Shown here in pieces: positions 37,122 to 54,276 of a stretch of 64,000 bases of DNA. Position numbers and translations under genes: made by a program. The notes under the pieces were generated by a model, which searched no databases, had not been told where the DNA came from, and saw nothing but the letters and a program-made list of their open reading frames with translations. Positions within the stretch are counted from its first letter, which is position 1; every line of letters begins with the position of its first letter. Source of the DNA: Desulfofustis sp. PB-SRB1 (lineage in GTDB: Bacteria > Desulfobacterota > Desulfobulbia > Desulfobulbales > Desulfocapsaceae); assembly GCA_016722945.1 (NCBI GenBank), contig JAEQMT010000010.1, positions 699,765-763,764 of the forward strand. The letters run 5' to 3'.

Positions 37122-37358
37122 ATGTTGACGTTCCGCATAGAGAAGATGAAACAACCCGACTCAGCCACATTCGTTGTGGAAGTAGAGCAGGCCTTCGGGT
37201 TTTTGCGCGACAACGGTTTTACGAGTAGCGTAGCCGATCGCACGGACACGGCGCCCACAGCCGGCCTGCTCTTTCGTGGAACCAACCTTGCTACGGCAAT
37301 TGAAGAAGGAGAACCACTAATATGCCCAGCGCCGAACAACTTCGCAGTCGCCTGTTGA
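37122..37358 (+). pseudogene. Truncated ORF upstream of mod
   Basis: A 78-codon frame. Residues ~9-60 (DSATFVVEVEQAFGFLRDNG ... GLLFRGTNLATAIE) look like the start of a longer soluble protein; the sequence then loses character (GEPLICPAPNN) and overlaps the first 37 bp of mod in another frame. Probably the remnant of a gene cut when the restriction locus arrived. The AAGGAG that serves mod lies inside this frame. Confidence 0.4.
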
Positions 37359-40300
37359 AGAAGCTTTCCGAGCTGTTCCAGCTCGACCAGCCGGATCTTG
37401 ATTTCGGCTTTTACCGCATCATGCACGCAAAGAGTGCCGAAGTGCACGACTTCATCACCACCGACCTGCTGAAAATCGTGGCGGATGCCTTCGCTGATAT
37501 GGACGAGGTCCGCAAGGCTGAATTGCAAGCCGCTTACGACAACACGCTCAGAGAGGCGAAGGAAGAATACGGAATAACCGAACCGGAGAAAACGCCCAAA
37601 GTACAGAAAGCCAAGGCCGCGCTGGATGCGGCCAAGGATACCGCCGGCGCCGAGGCTGAGGTGTATGACCACCTCTATCGCTTCTTTGAACGCTATTACG
37701 ACGATGGCGACTTCATCTCCCGCCGCTATTACACCCGGGAAACCTCCGGCAAGGCGGCGCCTTTTGCCGTGCCCTACAACGGCGAGGAGGTGAAGCTGCA
37801 CTGGGCCAACGCCGACCAGTATTACATCAAGAGCGCCGAGTACTTTTCCAACTTCACCTTTGACTTGGGGCAGGCGAAGGAAGTCAGAGCAGCCCAGGGA
37901 AGTCTGCCGATGGGAGGCATTGAAGCACCCCGGATGGTTCATTTTCGCGTCGTCGAGGCCACCGAGGGCGAGCACGGCAACGTCAAGGCCTCCGAGGCCA
38001 ACAAGCGATTCTTCATCCTGCATGCCGAAGACCCCGTCGCCCTGAGCGAAACCGGCGAGCTGGTCGTCAATTTTGAATACCGGCCTGATCCCGAAAAAAC
38101 CGGCCAGGAAAACACCTGGCGGGACAAGCGCAACGCCGAGGCGGTGGCGACCATCCTGGAGCACCTTGAAAATATGGCTGCAACCGGTGGCGAACACGAA
38201 AAACAGATCGAACAATATCTGCGCCTCTTCAAGATTCCCGCACCAACCGAGAAAGACAAGAAGCGCCCCGTGCTCGCCAAGTATGTGAACCAGTACACCG
38301 CCCGCAACACCATGGACTATTTTATCCATAAGGATCTGGGCGGCTTTTTGCGCCGGGAGCTGGACTTCTACATCAAGAACGAGGTCATGCGCCTTGATGA
38401 CATCGAAAATGCCGACGCCCCGGCGGTGGAAAGCTATCTGGCGACAATCAAGGTGCTACGCAAAATCGCCGGCAAGCTGATCGACTTTCTCGCCCAGCTT
38501 GAGGATTTTCAGAAAAAGCTCTGGCTCAAGAAGAAATTCATTGTCGAAACCAACTACTGTATTACCCTCGACCGGGTTCCCGAGGAACTCTACGCGGAGG
38601 TGGCCGCCTGTGATGGGCAGTGTGACGAGTGGATCAAACTGTTTGCCATCGACGAGATTCAGGCCGATCTGCACAGTCCCGGTTTCTCTCGGCCTCTGAC
38701 GGTCGAGTTCCTCAAGGCCAATAACAAGCTGGTGCTGGATACCCGCTTCTTCGATAACAGCTTCAAGGCCCGGCTGGTGGCATCGATTGAGAATTTCGAT
38801 GAGCAGTGTGATGGTCTGCTGATTCACTCGGAGAATTTTCAGGCGTTGAACCTGTTGCAGGAGCGGTATCGCGAGCAGGTGAAGTGCGTGTATATTGACC
38901 CGCCGTATAACACCGGTTCGGATCCTGATTTTTACTACAAAGACGCCTACAAATATTCATCATGGATTACTATGATCAGTGATCGAGTATCATCTTCAAA
39001 ATCAATGCTTCAACATAAAGGGAGCTTATTTGCACAAATTGATGATTACGAAGAACATCATTTAAGAATGATCTTGGATTCAATTTTCACAGAAGCTTTA
39101 CGTATTAATCGAATCGCCTGGGTAAGAACATTCAATTCTGGCTCATCAAAGGGGCTGTCTCGCAAACTCCCTTCAAACTTGGACACCCTATATTGGTATG
39201 CAAAATCAAATGATTTTGAACATAAGAAAGAACTACGACCGTATTCTGATGGAGCAATGAAAAGATATGACAAGGAGGATGAAAAGGGACGGTTCAAATG
39301 GAATCCTATGAAAACATATTCTCGGGAAAAGTTGGATCGCTTAATTGCTAGCGGAGATGCAATATGGACTGAGAATTCAAAATACCCAGTATATAAAAAA
39401 TACCTTGATGAAAATTCAGGAGCTCCACTGGACAACAATTGGAGCGATATCGCAGGTATAGGAACTTTTGCATCGGAACGCACAGGATTTGTAACACAAA
39501 AACCGGCAAAGCTGATTGAGAGATGTCTAAAGTTAACTAATGTTGATTTGGCCCTCGACTACTTCGCTGGCTCAGGCACGACCGGCCATGCTGTCATCAA
39601 CATCAACCGTGAAGATAGCGGAAACCGCAAATTCATCCTCGTCGAAATGGGCGACTATTTCGATACCGTCCTGAAGCCCCGCATTGCCAAAGTGGTTTAT
39701 TCCGAAAGCTGGAAAGACGGCAAACCCAAAGCGCGCCATACCGGCATATCCCACTGCTGCAAATACCTCCGTTTGGAATCTTACGAGGATACGCTCAACA
39801 ACCTGCGCTTCGATGACGGGCCGAGCAATAGTGCGCTATTAAAAAACCCTTCCCTCAAAGAAGACTACATGCTCCGCTACCTGCTGGATGTGGAGACCCG
39901 GGGCAGTCAATCACTTCTCAATATCGACGCCTTTGTCGATCCGACCAGCTACACCCTGGAGGTCAAAAAGCCGGGGACGGACGAATACGTCACCCGTGCG
40001 GTGGATCTGATCGAGACCTTCAATTATCTGATCGGCCTGCGGGTGGTGCATTACGCCGCACCGCGGGAGTGCACCGCCACGTTTATGCGCGTCGAAGACC
40101 CCGCGGTGCCACAGGGCCGACAAACCAAACTCGTCCTTGATGGGACATTACAGCCAATCGAAAATCCGCAATCTGCAATCAGCAATCCTGTTTGGTGGTT
40201 CCGCACGGTCGAGGGCTGGACGCCCGCCGACCCGGCCAATCCCAACAATGGCCGGCGGGAGAAGGTCCTGATCGTCTGGCGCACACTCACCGGCGACATC

Positions 40301-40492
40301 GAGCAGGACAACCTGATGCTGGATGAATGGTTCCAGAAGAACCGCATCAGCACCCGCGATTTCGAGTTCGACACCATCTACGTCAACGGCACCAACAATC
40401 TGCCCAATCTGAAGCTTGATGACGAGAACTGGAAGGTTCGCCTCATCGAAGAAGAGTTCATGAAGCGCATGTGGAATATGGAGGTCATATAA
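37322..40492 (+). CDS. Type III-like DNA adenine methyltransferase (Mod)
   Basis: A 1056-residue N6-adenine/N4-cytosine methyltransferase. A long N-terminal region (~1-510) with charged helices precedes the catalytic domain: DPPYNTGSDPDFYYKD (motif IV, about residue 524) comes before FAGSGTTGHAV (motif I, about 746), the beta-class order of type III Mod. The DNA between these motifs (38950-39550), the likely target-recognition domain, is strikingly AT-rich. An in-frame NPQSAISNP insert lies near residue 950. Partner of the helicase at 42271. Confidence 0.9.
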   Translation: MPSAEQLRSRLLKKLSELFQLDQPDLDFGFYRIMHAKSAEVHDFITTDLLKIVADAFADMDEVRKAELQAAYDNTLREAKEEYGITEPEKTPKVQKAKAALDAAKDTAGAEAEVYDHLYRFFERYYDDGDFISRRYYTRETSGKAAPFAVPYNGEEVKLHWANADQYYIKSAEYFSNFTFDLGQAKEVRAAQGSLPMGGIEAPRMVHFRVVEATEGEHGNVKASEANKRFFILHAEDPVALSETGELVVNFEYRPDPEKTGQENTWRDKRNAEAVATILEHLENMAATGGEHEKQIEQYLRLFKIPAPTEKDKKRPVLAKYVNQYTARNTMDYFIHKDLGGFLRRELDFYIKNEVMRLDDIENADAPAVESYLATIKVLRKIAGKLIDFLAQLEDFQKKLWLKKKFIVETNYCITLDRVPEELYAEVAACDGQCDEWIKLFAIDEIQADLHSPGFSRPLTVEFLKANNKLVLDTRFFDNSFKARLVASIENFDEQCDGLLIHSENFQALNLLQERYREQVKCVYIDPPYNTGSDPDFYYKDAYKYSSWITMISDRVSSSKSMLQHKGSLFAQIDDYEEHHLRMILDSIFTEALRINRIAWVRTFNSGSSKGLSRKLPSNLDTLYWYAKSNDFEHKKELRPYSDGAMKRYDKEDEKGRFKWNPMKTYSREKLDRLIASGDAIWTENSKYPVYKKYLDENSGAPLDNNWSDIAGIGTFASERTGFVTQKPAKLIERCLKLTNVDLALDYFAGSGTTGHAVININREDSGNRKFILVEMGDYFDTVLKPRIAKVVYSESWKDGKPKARHTGISHCCKYLRLESYEDTLNNLRFDDGPSNSALLKNPSLKEDYMLRYLLDVETRGSQSLLNIDAFVDPTSYTLEVKKPGTDEYVTRAVDLIETFNYLIGLRVVHYAAPRECTATFMRVEDPAVPQGRQTKLVLDGTLQPIENPQSAISNPVWWFRTVEGWTPADPANPNNGRREKVLIVWRTLTGDIEQDNLMLDEWFQKNRISTRDFEFDTIYVNGTNNLPNLKLDDENWKVRLIEEEFMKRMWNMEVI

Positions 40493-41599
40493 ATGGGAAA
40501 CTCGCTCGACAAGCTGACCATTCGCGGCTTCAAGTCCATTCGAGAGCTTGAGAATTTCGAACTGAAAAACCTAAATGTTTTTGTCGGAGCCAACGGAGCG
40601 GGGAAAAGCAACCTGATTTCCTTTTTCCGCATGCTTCAGGCATTGATTGAAGGGAGTCTTGCTGACTACGTCCGTGATAGCGGCGGTATTGGCGACCTAC
40701 TTTACAATGGGCGAAAAGCAACTCAGGAAATGAAGTTCGAAACCCGTTTTGGAGTGCGCGGTTTTCGTTTTACCATCAAGCCTGGACCTGGAGAAGGTTT
40801 TGCCCTAACGGATGAAGCGCGCTTCTACTCCCCTGGCCGCACGGGTTGGTGGGAGCTTGGAAGCAGCAATAACAGCTCCTCTCTCCTGGTCAAAGAAGCG
40901 AAAGGAACTTCTTCTGATAGCCAATACAGCAGACCTGTTTACGATGCTATTAATTCTTGGAAAATTTACCACTTCCACGACACCAGCTCGACAGCAGCCA
41001 TGCGGCATGCTGAAATTGTTGAGGACAATAAAGCGTTACGATTCGACGCATCCAACATCGGTCCGTTTTTGCTACGTCTCCGAAATGAAAAGAAGGCCTA
41101 TTATGACGAAATACTGAATGCATGCCGGCTGGTTGCTCCTTTTTTTGACGATTTTCTACTCGACCCTCAACAGTTGGGGCCAAAGACTAAGGTTTCCCTA
41201 ACATGGGAAACCAAGGGCTCCGATTATCCCATGCAGCCTTATCACCTCTCAGACGGCAGCATTCGCTTTATCTGCCTCGCCACGGCACTTCTACAACCGA
41301 ATCAGCCATCCACCATCATCATTGATGAACCTGAGTTAGGCTTGCATCCAGAAGCGATACGAATCCTTGGTGAGCTCATTGAAGACGCAGCTAAACGAAC
41401 ACAGATCATTGTCGCAACGCAATCCCCTCTCTTGCTCGATCAGTTTTCCATCGAGGATATCGTCGTGGTGAACCGCAAAGAGGGACAATCGTCTTTTGAA
41501 CGGCTGAAACACTCGGATTTCAATGAATGGCTGGAGGTCTATTCAGTCGGCGAACTCTGGACAAAAAATGTGATCCAGGGAGGCACAACCAATGAGTAG
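40493..41599 (+). CDS. RecF/OLD-like AAA family ATPase
   Basis: A 368-residue ABC/SMC-type ATPase. Walker A is GANGAGKSNLI (about residues 31-41) after IRGFKSIRELENF; the signature-like HLSDGSIRF (about 250) and Walker B STIIIDEPELGLHPEAI (about 275) follow, then a switch ATQSPLLLDQF. This is the AAA_21 type that forms two-gene systems with Toprim-like effectors. It starts 1 bp after the mod stop and overlaps the DUF4276 gene by 8 bp. Confidence 0.9.
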   Translation: MGNSLDKLTIRGFKSIRELENFELKNLNVFVGANGAGKSNLISFFRMLQALIEGSLADYVRDSGGIGDLLYNGRKATQEMKFETRFGVRGFRFTIKPGPGEGFALTDEARFYSPGRTGWWELGSSNNSSSLLVKEAKGTSSDSQYSRPVYDAINSWKIYHFHDTSSTAAMRHAEIVEDNKALRFDASNIGPFLLRLRNEKKAYYDEILNACRLVAPFFDDFLLDPQQLGPKTKVSLTWETKGSDYPMQPYHLSDGSIRFICLATALLQPNQPSTIIIDEPELGLHPEAIRILGELIEDAAKRTQIIVATQSPLLLDQFSIEDIVVVNRKEGQSSFERLKHSDFNEWLEVYSVGELWTKNVIQGGTTNE

Positions 41600-42284
41600 T
41601 TATGCGGAAGTGGTTGTGCTTGTGGAGGGGCCAACGGAACAGCGATTCGTCAAACATTTGCTTGCACCGTATTTGGCAGACCGTAGTGTGTATCTGACTC
41701 CAATCATTCTGGATAAGCCCGGTGAAAGAGGTGGTGATGTAAAGTTTGCACGAGCCAAGAATGACATCGGAAGGCATCTCAAGCAAAGAAGGGATACCTG
41801 GATTACGCTTCTTGTCGATTACTACGGCATCCGCGGTGATTGGCCGGGGTATGCTGAATCGAAACGGCAAATCGATCACACCCAAAAAGCTGCCATTATG
41901 AATCAGGCCACGGCTGAACAAGTTCAACAGCTTTTCCCGAAGCAAAATCAGTCAAGTCGGTTCATACCCTATGTGTCTATGTATGAGATTGAAGCATTAT
42001 ATTTCAGCGATCCCGCATGCATCGCCAAAAAGTTAGGGGTCGCTCGACGGCAAGTTGACGCGATCCTTGAGGAGTGTAAGGAACCGGAACAGATTAACGA
42101 CCATAGCACTAAAGCACCCTCAAAAAGACTGGATGGGCTGTCTGATCGTTTCAAGAAAACTTCTACCGGCATTGCTATAGCTGAAGAAATCGGAATTTGC
42201 AAAATGCGGGAAGCGTGCCCGCTTTTTGACGCCTGGCTTACGAAACTGGAATCACTGGTGGAGAGCAAAGATGGCGAAGCGTAA
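41592..42284 (+). CDS. DUF4276 family protein (Toprim-like)
   Basis: A 230-residue protein. VLVEGPTEQRFVKHLLAPYL (residues ~9-28) carries the EGxxE pattern typical of Toprim motif I, and LLVDYYGIRGDWPG (about 74) resembles the acidic second motif; a third conserved block is SMYEIEALYFSDP. This fits DUF4276, which accompanies AAA_21 ATPases. It could be the nuclease or effector half of a two-gene defence module. Overlaps both neighbours; translationally coupled. Confidence 0.82.
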   Translation: MSSYAEVVVLVEGPTEQRFVKHLLAPYLADRSVYLTPIILDKPGERGGDVKFARAKNDIGRHLKQRRDTWITLLVDYYGIRGDWPGYAESKRQIDHTQKAAIMNQATAEQVQQLFPKQNQSSRFIPYVSMYEIEALYFSDPACIAKKLGVARRQVDAILEECKEPEQINDHSTKAPSKRLDGLSDRFKKTSTGIAIAEEIGICKMREACPLFDAWLTKLESLVESKDGEA

Positions 42285-45200
42285 AGCCAGAGGGCCGAGG
42301 CCACATTCATTCAGAAACAAGCTACTGCTCAACCAGTGGCTTGTCAGTCTGTTCGGAATCGATCCGTTGGTGGAGCATAAGGTTAATGGAAAAGTAGTCC
42401 GTCCTTTCCATAGGTTGGCAGCTCCGATCCGAGATTCGAGGATGGAAGGGTTGGATGCGGATAATATCCATAAATTTTATCACAACTTGGTGAACAGTGA
42501 GCTGTTCTGGAATGAACGGTGCGCTCTCAGCAAGGAACAGATTCTTTTTTATGAGCAGAACATCGTCCGTCATACCCAGGCGATCAATGAAAAGCGTCAC
42601 CGCCCCATTGGGTGGAAATATTACCAATGGCTGACCCTGATCTTTGTTGAAATCTACCTGGATCGCTTTTTTGGCAATCGTGAAGGGATGCTCGCCGATC
42701 TCAATGCGTTCGCCCGGCGTTTCAACCGCCACTGGGACGATTACGCCGATGTGCCGCCTTACAATGAGGATGACCTGAACAAGCTCTGTATGCAGAACGC
42801 CACCGGCAGCGGCAAGACGCTGCTGATGCACGTCAACCTGCTGCAATACCGGCACTACTGCGCAAGGCATGGAAAGGATAAGGAACTCTCCCGCGTTATC
42901 CTGCTGACGCCCAACGAACGCCTTTCGGAGCAACATATCACCGAATTGCGGGAGAGCGATATCTCGGCAGGCAGCTACCTGCAATCCCGAGGTGGCCTCT
43001 TCGGCCTGGCCCAGGGCCTTGCGCGGGTGGATGTGCTGGAGATTACCAAGCTGGCTGATCAGGAGGGACCGAACACCATCGCCACGCGAAGCCTGGGAGA
43101 TCAGAATCTGCTTCTGGTGGACGAGGGGCATCGTGGCATGAGCGGCAAAGAGGAAGGCGTCTGGTTCACCCGGCGCTCCGATCTCTGCGCCAAGGGGTTC
43201 ACCTTCGAGTATTCGGCCACCTTCGAGCAGGCCGTTCAGGCATCCGGCAATGCCGATTTTGAGAATAGCTACGCCAAGACGGTTCTGTTTGATTACTCCT
43301 ACCGGTGGTTCTATGAGGACGGTTTCGGCAAGGATTATCAGATCCTGAACTTGCCGGAATCTTTCGAGCAGACCCAGTCCCTCTACATGACCGCCTGCCT
43401 GCTGAAATTCTATCAGCAACTCCGGATCTACGAGGAAAAGGCCAAAGATTTCGAGCCGTTCAATCTGGAAAAGCCGCTGTGGGTCTTTGTCGGCAGCACG
43501 GTTTCCTCGGGTAAGATGAGCAAGGATGAACAGATCGTGGCAACCGACGTGGCGCTCATCATCCAGTTTATCGCCGACTTTCTCGACAACCAGCAGGTGG
43601 CATTGCAACGCATGCACCAGATCATCACCGGCAAAGGCCAGGATACCGGCCTGCTGGACAAGGATGGGAACGACATCTTTGCCGGGGCCTTCACCTATCT
43701 GGCCCGGGCAATGAATGGCGGCGAAACCGCCCACACCCTCTACCGGGATATTCTCGCCAGGCTATTCAACCATGCCGCGGGCGGGCATTTGTCACTTACT
43801 CGCATCAAAGGGGAATCCGGCGAAGTGGCCCTGCAGGTGGGCACAAGCGAGACGCCGTTTGGTCTGATCAACGTTGGTGATGCCAAGAGGTTGTGCGACC
43901 ACGTGGCCGAAGTGGCGGCGATAAACGGCACACGACTGAGCGTGGAAGACAGTGACTTTACCGAGGCGATGTTTGGCTCCGTGAAGGATTCCACCTCACC
44001 GGTCAACCTGCTTATCGGCTCGAAAAAATTTGTCGAAGGCTGGGATTGCTGGCGCGTCAGCACCATGGGCCTGATGCATGTTGGCCGCTCGGAGGGCTCA
44101 CAGATCATTCAGCTCTTTGGGCGTGGTGTCCGCTTGAAGGGGTATGAGTGGAGCCTCAAACGCAGCGGCCATTCCCATGCGCCGCTTCGGCCGACCTTCA
44201 TCGAGGAATTGGAGACCTTGGGCGTGTTCGGTATCGAGGCCGACTTCATGGAGAAGTTCCGCGACTTCCTCAAAGAGGAAGGCTTACCCGGCAACGAGCG
44301 CCGCAAGATCATCACCATCCCGCTCAATGTCACCTATGACTTCGGTAAGAAGTTGAAAATCCTCCGTCCCAAGCGGAAGTCTTCGGACGGCAAGGAATAC
44401 GATTTCAAGAAAGATGCGGCGGTACCCACTGTCGGGGATATCCCCGACCACATGACGCTACGCCCGGTGGTCGCCGACTGGTACCCGCGCATTCAGGCCA
44501 TGCAGTCACGAGGTTCATCCCTGGCGACCCAGAAGGACAAGGTCTCCTTGGGTGAACAGCATGTGGCTCTGCTGGACTATGACACGCTCTTTTTCGAGCT
44601 GGAGCGATTCAAGCGCGAACGGGGCTGGTACAACCTCAATATCACCAAGGCTGGCATCAAACGCCTGCTTGGGGACCCGAGTTGGTACACCCTTTACCTG
44701 CCCGCAACCCATCTGAACCCGGCAACCTTTGATGGCGTGCTCTTGCTGCAGCAGGTGGCGACCGAGCTTCTGAAGCGATATTGCGATCACTACTACAACT
44801 ATCGTAAACGGGAATACATCGAACCGCGTCTGGGGCTACGTGACTTGACGCCGGATGATGACAACATCCCGCGGGAGGAATTCTACCAGCTCATCGTTGA
44901 TGGCGATGAGGAACAGGTCATCCAGGGAATCCAGCAGATCAAGAAGGATCTGGAGCAGAAGAAGGATGATCTGCTGAAGGTTGGCGATCTGCACGGTTGT
45001 AATTTCGGCACGCACCTCTTCCAGCCGCTCTTTCACGTCCGGCGCGGAGGGAAAATCACCATCCTGCCCGTCGCCTTGGGCGAGAGCGAATATCAGTTTG
45101 TCGAAGACTTGAAGAAATATGTGGATGAAAACATCAAAAATCCAAAATCAAAAATCGCCAATTGCGAACTATTCCTGCTCAGGAACCTGAGCCGGGGCAA

Positions 45201-45570
45201 GGGCGTGGGATTCTTCGAGGCGGGCAACTTTCATCCGGATTTCATTTTGTGGATGCTGATGGGCGGCAAACAGTATGTCACCTTCATAGAGCCACACGGT
45301 CTATTGCACGAAGGCCCCGCCAGCGAGAAGGTTCTGTTTCACAAACGGATCAAGGATGTCGAAGGGCGGCTGGAAGACCCCACCGTGGTCCTCAACAGTT
45401 TCATCCTTTCCTGGACGCGATACCCGCAACTGAAGTGGGACAACACACAGGACGAACTCGAGGATATGCACGTGCTCTTTATGACCAATGATCGGGACAA
45501 CTATATCGACAAGCTGTTTGCCCGGCTGAGGGGGATGTGCTCCGAAAGGTCAGCTTATCATTACGCATAA
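42271..45570 (+). CDS. Type III-like restriction helicase subunit (Res)
   Basis: A 1099-residue SF2 helicase. Motif I is QNATGSGKTLLMHV (about residue 185), motif II LLVDEGHRG (DEGH, about 290), motif III YSATF, and motif VI QLFGRGVRLKG (about 615). The distal region should hold the nuclease domain; no PD-ExK motif is certain by eye. ATG 42271, preceded by GGAGAG, overlaps the DUF4276 stop; the frame itself extends upstream. An in-frame NPKSKIAN insert occurs near residue 958. Confidence 0.88.
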   Translation: MAKRKARGPRPHSFRNKLLLNQWLVSLFGIDPLVEHKVNGKVVRPFHRLAAPIRDSRMEGLDADNIHKFYHNLVNSELFWNERCALSKEQILFYEQNIVRHTQAINEKRHRPIGWKYYQWLTLIFVEIYLDRFFGNREGMLADLNAFARRFNRHWDDYADVPPYNEDDLNKLCMQNATGSGKTLLMHVNLLQYRHYCARHGKDKELSRVILLTPNERLSEQHITELRESDISAGSYLQSRGGLFGLAQGLARVDVLEITKLADQEGPNTIATRSLGDQNLLLVDEGHRGMSGKEEGVWFTRRSDLCAKGFTFEYSATFEQAVQASGNADFENSYAKTVLFDYSYRWFYEDGFGKDYQILNLPESFEQTQSLYMTACLLKFYQQLRIYEEKAKDFEPFNLEKPLWVFVGSTVSSGKMSKDEQIVATDVALIIQFIADFLDNQQVALQRMHQIITGKGQDTGLLDKDGNDIFAGAFTYLARAMNGGETAHTLYRDILARLFNHAAGGHLSLTRIKGESGEVALQVGTSETPFGLINVGDAKRLCDHVAEVAAINGTRLSVEDSDFTEAMFGSVKDSTSPVNLLIGSKKFVEGWDCWRVSTMGLMHVGRSEGSQIIQLFGRGVRLKGYEWSLKRSGHSHAPLRPTFIEELETLGVFGIEADFMEKFRDFLKEEGLPGNERRKIITIPLNVTYDFGKKLKILRPKRKSSDGKEYDFKKDAAVPTVGDIPDHMTLRPVVADWYPRIQAMQSRGSSLATQKDKVSLGEQHVALLDYDTLFFELERFKRERGWYNLNITKAGIKRLLGDPSWYTLYLPATHLNPATFDGVLLLQQVATELLKRYCDHYYNYRKREYIEPRLGLRDLTPDDDNIPREEFYQLIVDGDEEQVIQGIQQIKKDLEQKKDDLLKVGDLHGCNFGTHLFQPLFHVRRGGKITILPVALGESEYQFVEDLKKYVDENIKNPKSKIANCELFLLRNLSRGKGVGFFEAGNFHPDFILWMLMGGKQYVTFIEPHGLLHEGPASEKVLFHKRIKDVEGRLEDPTVVLNSFILSWTRYPQLKWDNTQDELEDMHVLFMTNDRDNYIDKLFARLRGMCSERSAYHYA

Positions 45571-51903: not shown

Positions 51904-52037
51904 GTCTAGGTTTTTTCAATACCGTTTTCCCTGAACCATGAAATTTATCATTGCCGTCAGCTTCATCCCGACGGCACCGCGGTATCGGCACATTGGACCT
52001 CACCGGTATGCATTTTATGTATGATTGCATTCATTAT

Positions 52038-52065
52038 TTGTTCACAAATGTATAATTGTTCACAA
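52038..52065 (+). promoter_or_regulatory. Two direct repeats TTGTTCACAA, candidate activator sites
   Basis: Identical 10-mers at 52038-52047 and 52056-52065, 18 bp apart start to start. They lie 54-81 bp upstream of the sigma-54 promoter of the pspA-like gene, where an enhancer-binding protein would bind. Confidence 0.5.
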
Positions 52066-52118
52066 GTATTTCTCTGTAAAATACAACAATACCAGGTAGT
52101 TAAGAGAATAATCATCGC

Positions 52119-52134
52119 TGGCCTGCAAGTTGCT
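52119..52134 (+). promoter_or_regulatory. Sigma-54 (-24/-12) promoter of the pspA-like operon
   Basis: TGGCCTGCAAGTTGCT matches the consensus TGGCACG-N4-TTGCW at all positions except the two bases after TGGC, with the correct GG-to-GC spacing. It is about 59 nt upstream of the ATG. The enterobacterial psp operon is also sigma-54 dependent, which supports the call. Confidence 0.7.
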
Positions 52135-52192
52135 TTTTGAATCAGCAATACCGTACCAGACAGACGGTTCATTACTACCAGGAGGAGGATAT

Positions 52193-52891
52193 ATGAAAAC
52201 CATTAAACGATTTATGTTCGGTGTCAGTGCAAAAATGGAAGAGCTTGTGGGGCAGATGGAAAATCATGAAGCGGTGGCGGCAAGCATGATTGCCGAAGCG
52301 CAGCGCAGTGCCGCCGCCGCCCGAATTCAGCTTGGCCGGGTCCGAGCCGACCGGGACAGGCTGCATACGCGTCTGGGGCAGCTCACGCAAAGCGAAAAGC
52401 AGTGGAAAGTACGGGCCAGAAAAATGGCCACCGAAAACGAAGATGGCGCCATCGAGTGCGTGCGCAGAATAAAACAGGTGCGAAAAGACATTGAGCAAAC
52501 CACCCGTGATGCTGCCGAGGTTGATGAGGTTGAAAGGAAGCTGCGCAAGGTTCTTGCCGAGATCGAGGATAAAATCCGTCTGCTGCGCCGTAAAAAACAT
52601 GCCCTCAGGTGCCGCCAGAGCTGTGCCGAGGCGGTTGAGGTGGTGAGCTGCGACGGCCTTGGCCGTGCCGATGAGATTGACGAGTTGCTGACCCGTTGGG
52701 AAACAAGCGTGGTGGAAAAAGAAATTCGCTTCGATATCGATCACCACCACGACGTCGACGAATTCGCCCGAACATTCGAGAACGAGGAGCAGCGGGACGA
52801 ACTCAAACAGATGCTCGATGAGATCATCGTAACTGCTGACTCAGATCCGGCATCACAAGGTGGAGCAGAAAAGGAGGACATACCGTCATGA
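52193..52891 (+). CDS. pspA: Phage shock protein A homologue (PspA/IM30 family)
   Basis: A 232-residue, almost wholly helical coiled-coil protein. The N-terminus MKTIKRFMFGVSAKMEELVGQMENHEAV is the membrane-binding amphipathic helix plus first hairpin of PspA; a long charged coiled coil follows (residues ~30-150). AGGAGGAGG directly before ATG 52193 fixes the start; the frame opens earlier. It overlaps the next gene by 4 bp. No pspF, pspB or pspC is nearby. Confidence 0.82.
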   Translation: MKTIKRFMFGVSAKMEELVGQMENHEAVAASMIAEAQRSAAAARIQLGRVRADRDRLHTRLGQLTQSEKQWKVRARKMATENEDGAIECVRRIKQVRKDIEQTTRDAAEVDEVERKLRKVLAEIEDKIRLLRRKKHALRCRQSCAEAVEVVSCDGLGRADEIDELLTRWETSVVEKEIRFDIDHHHDVDEFARTFENEEQRDELKQMLDEIIVTADSDPASQGGAEKEDIPS

Positions 52892-54276
52892 ACACGATGA
52901 CCACTTCACTCAGGGGAGAGCAGGTTGGCCACTCAGGCGGTGCTGATTCCATGTTTATCCAGGGCGAGACGCTGGAGCTTGCCGAAGAGCTTCAGTTCAC
53001 CGATGAGCCACAACGCTTTGGCATCCTTCGTTATCTTCCGGCCCTGTTGCGCTGGCTCGGGGTGGCGGCCCTGGCGGGCGGGGCCGCCATCTTCATGATG
53101 CAGGGCTTTCAAACAATCAATCTGGTAGCACGGCATTACGTCTTTCTGGGTATTGCCATAGCCTTTGGGATTACCGGTTTTTATCTGGCAATTCGGCTGC
53201 GGGAAACTCGGGGGGCCAGAACCTTCCTGGGGCTGACCATCGCCGCCATGCCGGTGCTGTTTTCCCAGCTCGGCGGCATGCTCTTGAACCAGGTGGCGCC
53301 AATGGATGTGGAGATGCCGCGGGTGTTTATGGCGGCCTCCGCATCGGCGTGGCCGGTGGCGCTTCACATCGCCATTACCTCTGTCCTGATGGCGCCCCTT
53401 GTTTACTACGGTTTCAGAATTCTTGCCGGGCAGCGGGCATATCTTTTTACCTCGCTGTTTTTTCTTACCAACGCGGCACTGTTGATACCGATAAGGGAGA
53501 CTTCAATTATCGGCCCACTGCTGTTGATTTTGATCGTTGTCCTGCAGACCATTGATACCATCTACTGCAAAAACGAGGTGCGACTGCATAATCTGGAGGG
53601 GCTGGCGGTACGTCTGATGATGGTGGCGCCGTTGATGGTGATGTTTACCAGAAGCCTCTATTATGGAGTTGATAATGTCTTCGTTGGTGCCTTGGTCAGT
53701 GGTGTCGGCTATATACTGCTTGCCGGTGTCAGAGGGTATCTCAGCGGTTCGGGTGTTAAAACAATAGTCGAAAGCGCCGGGTTGTTGACCATCGTCATGG
53801 GATGGTTGCTCTGCGCAATACCCAGTGCGGAAACATTTGTTTCATCACCTGCCGGGAAAATCGCTTTTCTCGGATTGCCGGCGGCGGCACTGATCGCCGC
53901 GCTGGCCAGTATGCCGGGTATCGGTGCTACCCGTGGGTGGTCGTGGTCGGCCTTTATTGCCGCGGTTACCCTGACCATGGTGTATTGCGTCGATGGCCAT
54001 CCGGCACTGACCGTGCTCGGCGTGACGGTTGGCTCCGGGTATGCGATTATGGCCTTTCTCAAAGGTGAGAAATTCCCCTTTTTTGCCGGTGTTTTTATGG
54101 TGGCCGGTGGGCTTGCCGCCGGTTGCTGGCAGGCGGTGGCCGATAACACCACGTTTGCCTGGGTGTTTCTCATCGCCCTTGGTGCCCTCACCGTGGTCAG
54201 CGGTTCGCTGGTGGAGCGGTATCGGCCAATGATTGGAAAATGGCATGGAACATTGAACAACCGTTTTACCCCATAA
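52888..54276 (+). CDS. Polytopic membrane protein of unknown function, paired with PspA
   Basis: A 462-residue protein with a ~45-residue cytoplasmic N-terminus (GETLELAEELQF) and about twelve hydrophobic segments from residue ~50 to 445, ending in a basic tail. No transporter motif is evident to me. The 4-bp overlap with pspA and the shared sigma-54 promoter imply a joint role, perhaps as the membrane sensor or anchor that PspB/C provide elsewhere. Family not recognised. Confidence 0.75.
   Translation: MNTMTTSLRGEQVGHSGGADSMFIQGETLELAEELQFTDEPQRFGILRYLPALLRWLGVAALAGGAAIFMMQGFQTINLVARHYVFLGIAIAFGITGFYLAIRLRETRGARTFLGLTIAAMPVLFSQLGGMLLNQVAPMDVEMPRVFMAASASAWPVALHIAITSVLMAPLVYYGFRILAGQRAYLFTSLFFLTNAALLIPIRETSIIGPLLLILIVVLQTIDTIYCKNEVRLHNLEGLAVRLMMVAPLMVMFTRSLYYGVDNVFVGALVSGVGYILLAGVRGYLSGSGVKTIVESAGLLTIVMGWLLCAIPSAETFVSSPAGKIAFLGLPAAALIAALASMPGIGATRGWSWSAFIAAVTLTMVYCVDGHPALTVLGVTVGSGYAIMAFLKGEKFPFFAGVFMVAGGLAAGCWQAVADNTTFAWVFLIALGALTVVSGSLVERYRPMIGKWHGTLNNRFTP

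Follow-up and report, generated by a model that had tools for sequence, protein, structure and literature searches.

The Locus and Its Genes

The stretch of DNA considered here, called the window throughout, is 64,000 nucleotides long and covers positions 699765-763764 of contig C1 in a draft genome of 4.69 Mb (71 contigs, 97.6% complete). A defence cluster occupies 37322-45570 of the window, where a type III methyltransferase and a type III restriction enzyme flank a HEC-01A/HEC-01B pair recognized by PADLOC. Further along, a 766-bp intergenic region leads on the plus strand into a predicted operon of two genes. The first of these (52193..52891, with its ATG at 52193) encodes a 232-amino acid protein and is preceded by an AGGAGG ribosome-binding site at 52180..52185 on the same strand, located by eye. 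Its product is a very divergent member of the PspA/IM30 family that passes the PF04012 profile with 56.8 bits against a cut-off of 33.9 (E 3.2e-15), and the original prediction of a pspA homologue downstream of the control region is upheld by this family assignment. The same protein falls far short of the PspA equivalog TIGR02977, scoring 33.1 bits where the cut-off is 242.95.

The second gene (52888..54276, plus strand) starts 4 bp inside the end of the first and encodes a polytopic membrane protein of 462 amino acids with many hydrophobic segments. It has no family match in Pfam and NCBIfam, and AlphaFold, run on it without an alignment, gave a mean pLDDT of 49.9. The operon in the window holds no pspB- or pspC-like gene, and only this protein without a family follows the pspA-like gene.

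The genome has three genes of the PspA family, each in a different context. Apart from the one in the window, there is a canonical PspA gene on contig C6 (150.6 bits), with PspB- and PspC-like ORFs downstream, as judged by eye, and a divergently oriented gene for a 340-amino acid activator that passes the PspF equivalog TIGR02974 with 455.7 bits against a cut-off of 443.55. The third, on contig C15, lies amid genes that by eye resemble those of NfeD and flotillin. BLAST of the 232-amino acid product against the canonical PspA (best E 0.81) and the C15 PspA (E 1.3) gave nothing meaningful. Relatives of this protein were likewise missing from the contig collection (scanned with the single sequence), the plasmids, 57 related genomes and 394 genomes of the phylum, the last two sets having some genomes in common. 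For the 462-amino acid protein, no relatives were seen in viral contigs or the same 394 phylum genomes, and BLAST at 11 compared PspA-family loci gave a best E of 0.015 and no meaningful relative.

Upstream of the pspA-like gene, the 10-mer TTGTTCACAA occurs twice, at 52038..52047 and 52056..52065, a start-to-start distance of 18 bp that leaves a gap of 8 bp and confirms the two identical repeats first noticed there. Each copy is a palindrome centred on TC; the first extends to ATTTGT-TC-ACAAAT, with arms of 6, and the second to AATTGT-TC-ACAAGT, with one arm mismatch. No further copy with up to one mismatch is found elsewhere in the 64-kb window.

Promoter Candidates and Chance Expectation

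A sigma-54-like -24/-12 element, TGGCCTGCAAGTTGCT, lies at 52119..52134 on the plus strand, 74 bp before the start codon of the pspA-like gene, and would place the start of transcription near 52145. The consensus of such promoters is TGGCACGN4TTGCW, with which TGGCCTGCAAGTTGCT agrees in 10 of 12 letters, C and T standing for A and C after TGGC. For the sulphate reducer Desulfovibrio vulgaris, the two boxes are given as tGGcacg and tTGCt in the portion of PMC4641369 that was available. The reading of 52119 as a -24/-12 match is borne out by its letters, but not by its rarity, as the window holds four 10-of-12 matches where 6.4 are expected and two instances of the stricter TGGCN7TTGCW where 1.84 are expected; taken alone across the window, the match is unremarkable. 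Within the intergenic region and on the right strand, the stricter element has a chance of about 0.7% (20,000 shuffles) and a 10-of-12 match one of about 2%.

A promoter model built from 29 of the bacterial family's pspA promoters likewise gave TGGCCTGCAAGTTGCT a low score of 3.8 bits (rank 117 of 127,970), compared with 12.5-24.4 bits in the training set and 15.4 bits for the genome's own canonical pspA promoter, which was held out, although a model so specific to pspA orthologues may undervalue other sigma-54 promoters. Compared by eye, TGGCCTGCAAGTTGCT and this canonical C6 promoter, TGGCATGCAACATGCT, have 13 of 16 letters in common, the spacer TGCAA included. The genome has the sigma-54 gene, whose absence had been named beforehand as a reason to abandon such a promoter, in the form of a single PF04552 match of 214 bits (rpoN).

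Other promoters were also considered. A weak sigma-70-type alternative at 52059..52087 on the plus strand, in which a TTCACA within the second palindrome is separated by 17 bp from a TACAAC, was picked out by eye; a sigma-70 pattern scan returned no plus-strand match at these positions. On the minus strand there are two overlapping sigma-70-like matches at 52033..52080, TTTACA-17-AATTAT and TGAACA-18-AATAAT, each with 9 of 12 letters, and four sigma-70-like matches were counted in the region where 1.7 are expected. Because the two minus-strand matches overlap the palindromes and point away from the pspA-like gene, the palindromes may act on a divergent transcript. As for the sigma-54-like element at 52119, it may have matched by chance or be a genuine second promoter.

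To gauge how improbable the pair is, the 766-bp intergenic region was shuffled 20,000 times with its dinucleotides preserved. Two identical 10-mers no more than 40 bp apart appeared in 2.2% of the shuffles, palindromic ones in 0.02% (4 of 20,000), and a close repeat of this kind, palindromic or not, along with a TGGCN7TTGCW element in only one of the 20,000 (0.005%), all of these being tests that were picked after the sequence was seen, so that the figures flatter the pair and the element. That the palindromic pair should arise by chance in this intergenic region is very unlikely.

The Search for a Regulon

The exact 10-mer TTGTTCACAA has 14 copies in the genome, as against one for the reversed control, an excess that is probably due to coding bias (GTG-AAC-AA codons). 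Of the 12 copies outside the window, most lie inside ORFs of at least 70 amino acids, and none has a second copy (up to two mismatches, about 120 bp) beside it. When the whole pair was sought with up to three mismatches, there were 44 matches per strand (the window among them) as opposed to 22 for the control, and the sole other pair in the genome with two mismatches falls inside an ABC-transporter-like ORF. The pair is unique in the genome and shows no regulon; the further pairs that the original prediction had proposed to look for were not found in this search, and its hope that the site sequence might identify the activator came to nothing.

The same search across 257 genomes of the order found six pairs with up to two mismatches outside this genome, compared with five for the reversed control, and no psp gene was seen beside any of the six. 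A 28-bp stretch in another genome of the order (G460; L191 1501-1528) is identical to the window pair and its spacer in 25 of 28 positions (7 of 8 in the spacer) and lies just upstream of a gene that by eye is laccase-domain-like; this resemblance is probably chance. Paired TTGTNNACAA sites followed by TGGC gave six matches in five of the 257 genomes, this one included, and the control gave five matches in three. Because these counts are so near each other, the arrangement is not enriched over control in the order. Among individual cases, G011, a relative from the same family, carries the pair TTGTCGACAA/TTGTTGACAA (L206), with a TTGACA within the second site, upstream of a GntR/FCD gene (PF00392, 44.7 bits; PF07729, 82 bits) that is followed by a gene of the dihydrodipicolinate synthase family. 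The G483 pair is intergenic, between an amidohydrolase gene and an 89-amino acid ORF, and the contexts in G011 and G483 are suggestive. The two G021 copies make up the arms of a single long inverted repeat; those in G020 both lie within an ORF.

A Predicted PspF Site in the Bacterial Family

PF04012 matches occur in 41 of the 93 genomes of the bacterial family, with 48 matches in total. The site model draws on 30 of these loci, namely the C6 locus of this genome and 29 others; 11 more were seen for context only and five were not included. A PspF-like divergent ORF is present at 24 of the 30, and also at L065, while at the other five it was at a contig edge, was not found or had a wrong start. 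The inferred PspF site, derived from the 150 bp that precede the -24 box at the 29 other loci, is a palindromic 17-bp ATGGTTAAATTAACCAT with the core TGGT-N7-ACCA. A motif width of 17 was used; a width of 18 mixed two registers, and one of 19 had the same core and a slightly better score. The pspF-pspA intergenic regions of the family (L046/L023, L055-L083) mostly contain two or three such sites spaced about 20 bp apart, near -81, -101 and -121 from the -24 box, and three of the 30 loci (L055, L056 and L061) have a single peak over 5 bits.

The model recovered the held-out C6 locus, with sites of 13.9, 7.5 and 8.4 bits. In the upstream region of E. coli K-12 pspA, also held out, it found TTAGTGTAATTCGCTAA at -81 with 8.7 bits, which we take to be the E. 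coli PspF site. The best site per canonical locus reaches at least 8.37 bits at all 30 loci, 29 of which are the training set. In the 150 bp before the window promoter, by comparison, the best PspF-type site scores only 2.7 bits, below the 3.6 bits that are the mean best of single-letter shuffles, whose 95% point of 8.4 bits makes a weak PspF site indistinguishable from noise. The palindromic pair itself scores below zero. Conversely, none of the 30 canonical pspA upstream regions has a TTGTNNACAA site, the region at L063 having TTTTTCACAA.

Possible Regulators of the Palindromic Pair

The interpretation favoured by a small margin, to which a probability of about 0.4 can be attached, is that the control region serves an operon, wired apart from PspF, in which a divergent PspA paralogue is coupled with a multi-helix membrane protein. 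A single dimeric regulator would occupy the two identical palindromes as adjacent operators, covering or freeing a promoter at or near them. By the A/T-rich TTGT-N2-ACAA half-sites, this regulator would most likely be of the FadR subfamily of GntR factors, its gene lying elsewhere in the genome; that the sites bind a protein, the family of that protein and the promoter used are predictions. The sites of the FadR subfamily, as described in the sections of PMC4494728 that were available, are A/T-rich palindromes with conserved TKGT/ACMA boxes in which GT and AC are separated by 3 nt in the majority of groups and by 2 nt in several others, and double or triple sites are quite common. The window sites agree with this consensus in its 2-nt form, and the improbable palindromic repeat (0.02% of shuffles) counts for operators, as does the GntR/FCD gene that follows a similar pair in G011 for a regulator of this kind.

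There are also points against a GntR factor. A centre of 2 nt is less common in the subfamily than one of 3 nt, going by the same partial source (PMC4494728), the plus-strand sigma-70 alternative is weak, and the pair lies at a normal enhancer distance from the sigma-54-like element, as the original prediction had correctly pointed out, which favours an enhancer-binding protein. No GntR gene was recognized by eye among the window ORFs of at least 90 amino acids, and the one regulator checked is of the LysR type. Nor was an orthologue found in the 57 relatives and 394 phylum genomes to show conservation.

Second choice, and only slightly less probable, is a sigma-54 promoter at 52119 whose activator would be some enhancer-binding protein different from PspF; measured from the predicted start, the two TTGTTCACAA copies to which it would bind lie near -102 and -84. 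The genome has rpoN and many sigma-54 activators, which the original prediction had proposed to look for, with 30 PF00158 hits (22 of them at 198 bits or more), and the letters of TGGCCTGCAAGTTGCT, its position before the start codon, its likeness to TGGCATGCAACATGCT and the rarity of a close repeat with the stricter element in shuffles all point the same way. On the other side are the failure of the element to exceed chance in the window, its poor score on the family pspA promoters and the lack of any PF00158 hit, and hence of a sigma-54 activator gene, in the window. At the 30 PF00158 loci, searched about 1.5 kb to each side, there is no TTGTNNACAA pair, and six hold single sites with up to one mismatch. 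A text search for a published TTGTNNACAA site of an enhancer-binding protein did not find the string, a weak result from a limited search. The half-sites of the pair are 2 bp apart, whereas TGT and ACA are 9, 11 or 12 bp apart in three groups of D. vulgaris activator motifs, in the part of PMC4641369 that could be consulted; as 16 of the 33 motifs there resembled no other, other shapes exist. A GntR-type operator is preferred because the window sites fit the 2-nt FadR form and these three activator groups are wider. A second sensor-less sigma-54 activator of 340 amino acids, whose best NCBIfam score is to NifA but below the cut-off, is encoded on contig C45 (L050 5908-6930); as an orphan partner of the pair it was set aside, as nothing connects the two.

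Rather improbable is a third view, in which another dimeric regulator, for example of the MarR, LacI or TetR type, binds the pair, perhaps on behalf of one of the overlapping minus-strand promoter-like matches, or the pair is a functionless remnant. It would suit the two sigma-70-like matches and the want of a regulon or of conservation, the pair being unique in the genome and having no clear counterpart in 256 other genomes of the order, but an unselected duplicated palindrome would be expected to decay, and it turns up in so few shuffles.

Direct control by PspF, the heart of the original prediction, fares worse. In that scheme PspF, freed by membrane stress, would activate the window operon through the TTGTTCACAA pair, and PspF, rpoN and a PspA-family product are indeed all in the genome. 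The pspF gene is neither adjacent to nor divergent from the window gene, its place being on C6 next to the canonical pspA; a PspF target need not adjoin pspF, as is seen from E. coli pspG, according to the accessible part of PMC9239133. The inferred PspF site is, however, absent at the window promoter (2.7 bits as against at least 8.37 at 30 of 30 canonical loci), while both held-out controls pass. PspF control through the pair is judged unlikely on this site model, because the window promoter scores below shuffles, the pair scores below zero and no TTGTNNACAA occurs in the 30 canonical regions, and the stress-driven scheme as a whole has very little probability left.

NifA, whose sites have the form TGT-N10-ACA, can be rejected as an activator with near confidence, for although TGTATAATTGTTCACA at 52049-52064 has this form and an activator beside nifH (L005) passes the NifA cut-off with 548.3 against 528.85, the sole such match before this genome's nifH lies about 30 bp from the start codon, which is not an enhancer distance, the 64-kb window has three such matches and the duplication would be left unexplained.

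Implications

A broader and rather doubtful idea is that a PspA-family membrane-remodelling protein, together with a large membrane partner of a new kind, has moved from the PspF circuit to a dedicated regulator, be it a metabolite-sensing GntR factor or an unrecognized enhancer-binding protein. If true, different signals would elicit separate PspA responses, two in number and independent of each other, in one cell. It is easily assumed that PspF control comes with a PspA-family gene; here the two come apart, with PspF-type sites present before the canonical C6 pspA and absent before the window gene, the two of the three PspA-family genes that were scanned. The family-wide site model, TGGT-N7-ACCA, is a testable by-product for calling PspF targets from sequence in this group.

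Comparison with Known Systems

The psp response has been placed under sigma-54 in a sulphate reducer before. In the available part of PMC4641369, DVU2989 is the sigma-54 regulator of DVU2988-2986, the phage shock response of D. vulgaris, and the psp operon there is thus already assigned to sigma-54 control. The portion of PMC9239133 at hand states that beyond the Proteobacteria the core PspABC keeps its genome location only in the Desulfobacterota; by the same account, descriptions of the PspF of the Psp response had been confined to the Enterobacteriaceae.

Like the canonical pspF-pspA loci of E. coli, C6 and D. vulgaris (DVU2989/DVU2988-2986), the window has a possible sigma-54 promoter followed by a PspA/IM30 gene and then a membrane partner. 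Unlike them, it has no pspF beside it, no PspB/PspC-like gene and no PspF-type sites, its PspA is beyond the reach of BLAST, and its partner is one large, unrelated membrane protein. The pair resembles the operators of FadR-subfamily GntR factors, as far as these are set out in the available text of PMC4494728, in being an A/T-rich palindrome with TTGT/ACAA boxes, a 2-nt centre and paired sites, but differs from them in having no recognized regulator gene nearby and a PspA-like operon as its target.

Three relatives have a short PspA-like gene (PF04012, 53-57 bits) between VWA-like (by eye) and small membrane-protein-like genes, with a response regulator gene and a kinase-like one running divergently (L164 3397-8501, L165 266-5000 and L166 3310-8501); BLAST found no meaningful similarity between this cluster and the window gene pair. 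With these paralogues and the flotillin/NfeD-like context on C15, the window has in common a PspA-family protein that adjoins a membrane protein outside the canonical locus, and it stands apart from them in a 462-amino acid partner that has neither a BLAST relative at the 11 loci nor a Pfam or NCBIfam match. Neither this partner nor this control region came up in the searches. A divergent PspA paralogue outside pspABC is itself an already known kind of thing, because PspA paralogues within one genome, in the part of PMC11237479 that was available, do not keep the same domain architecture and context.
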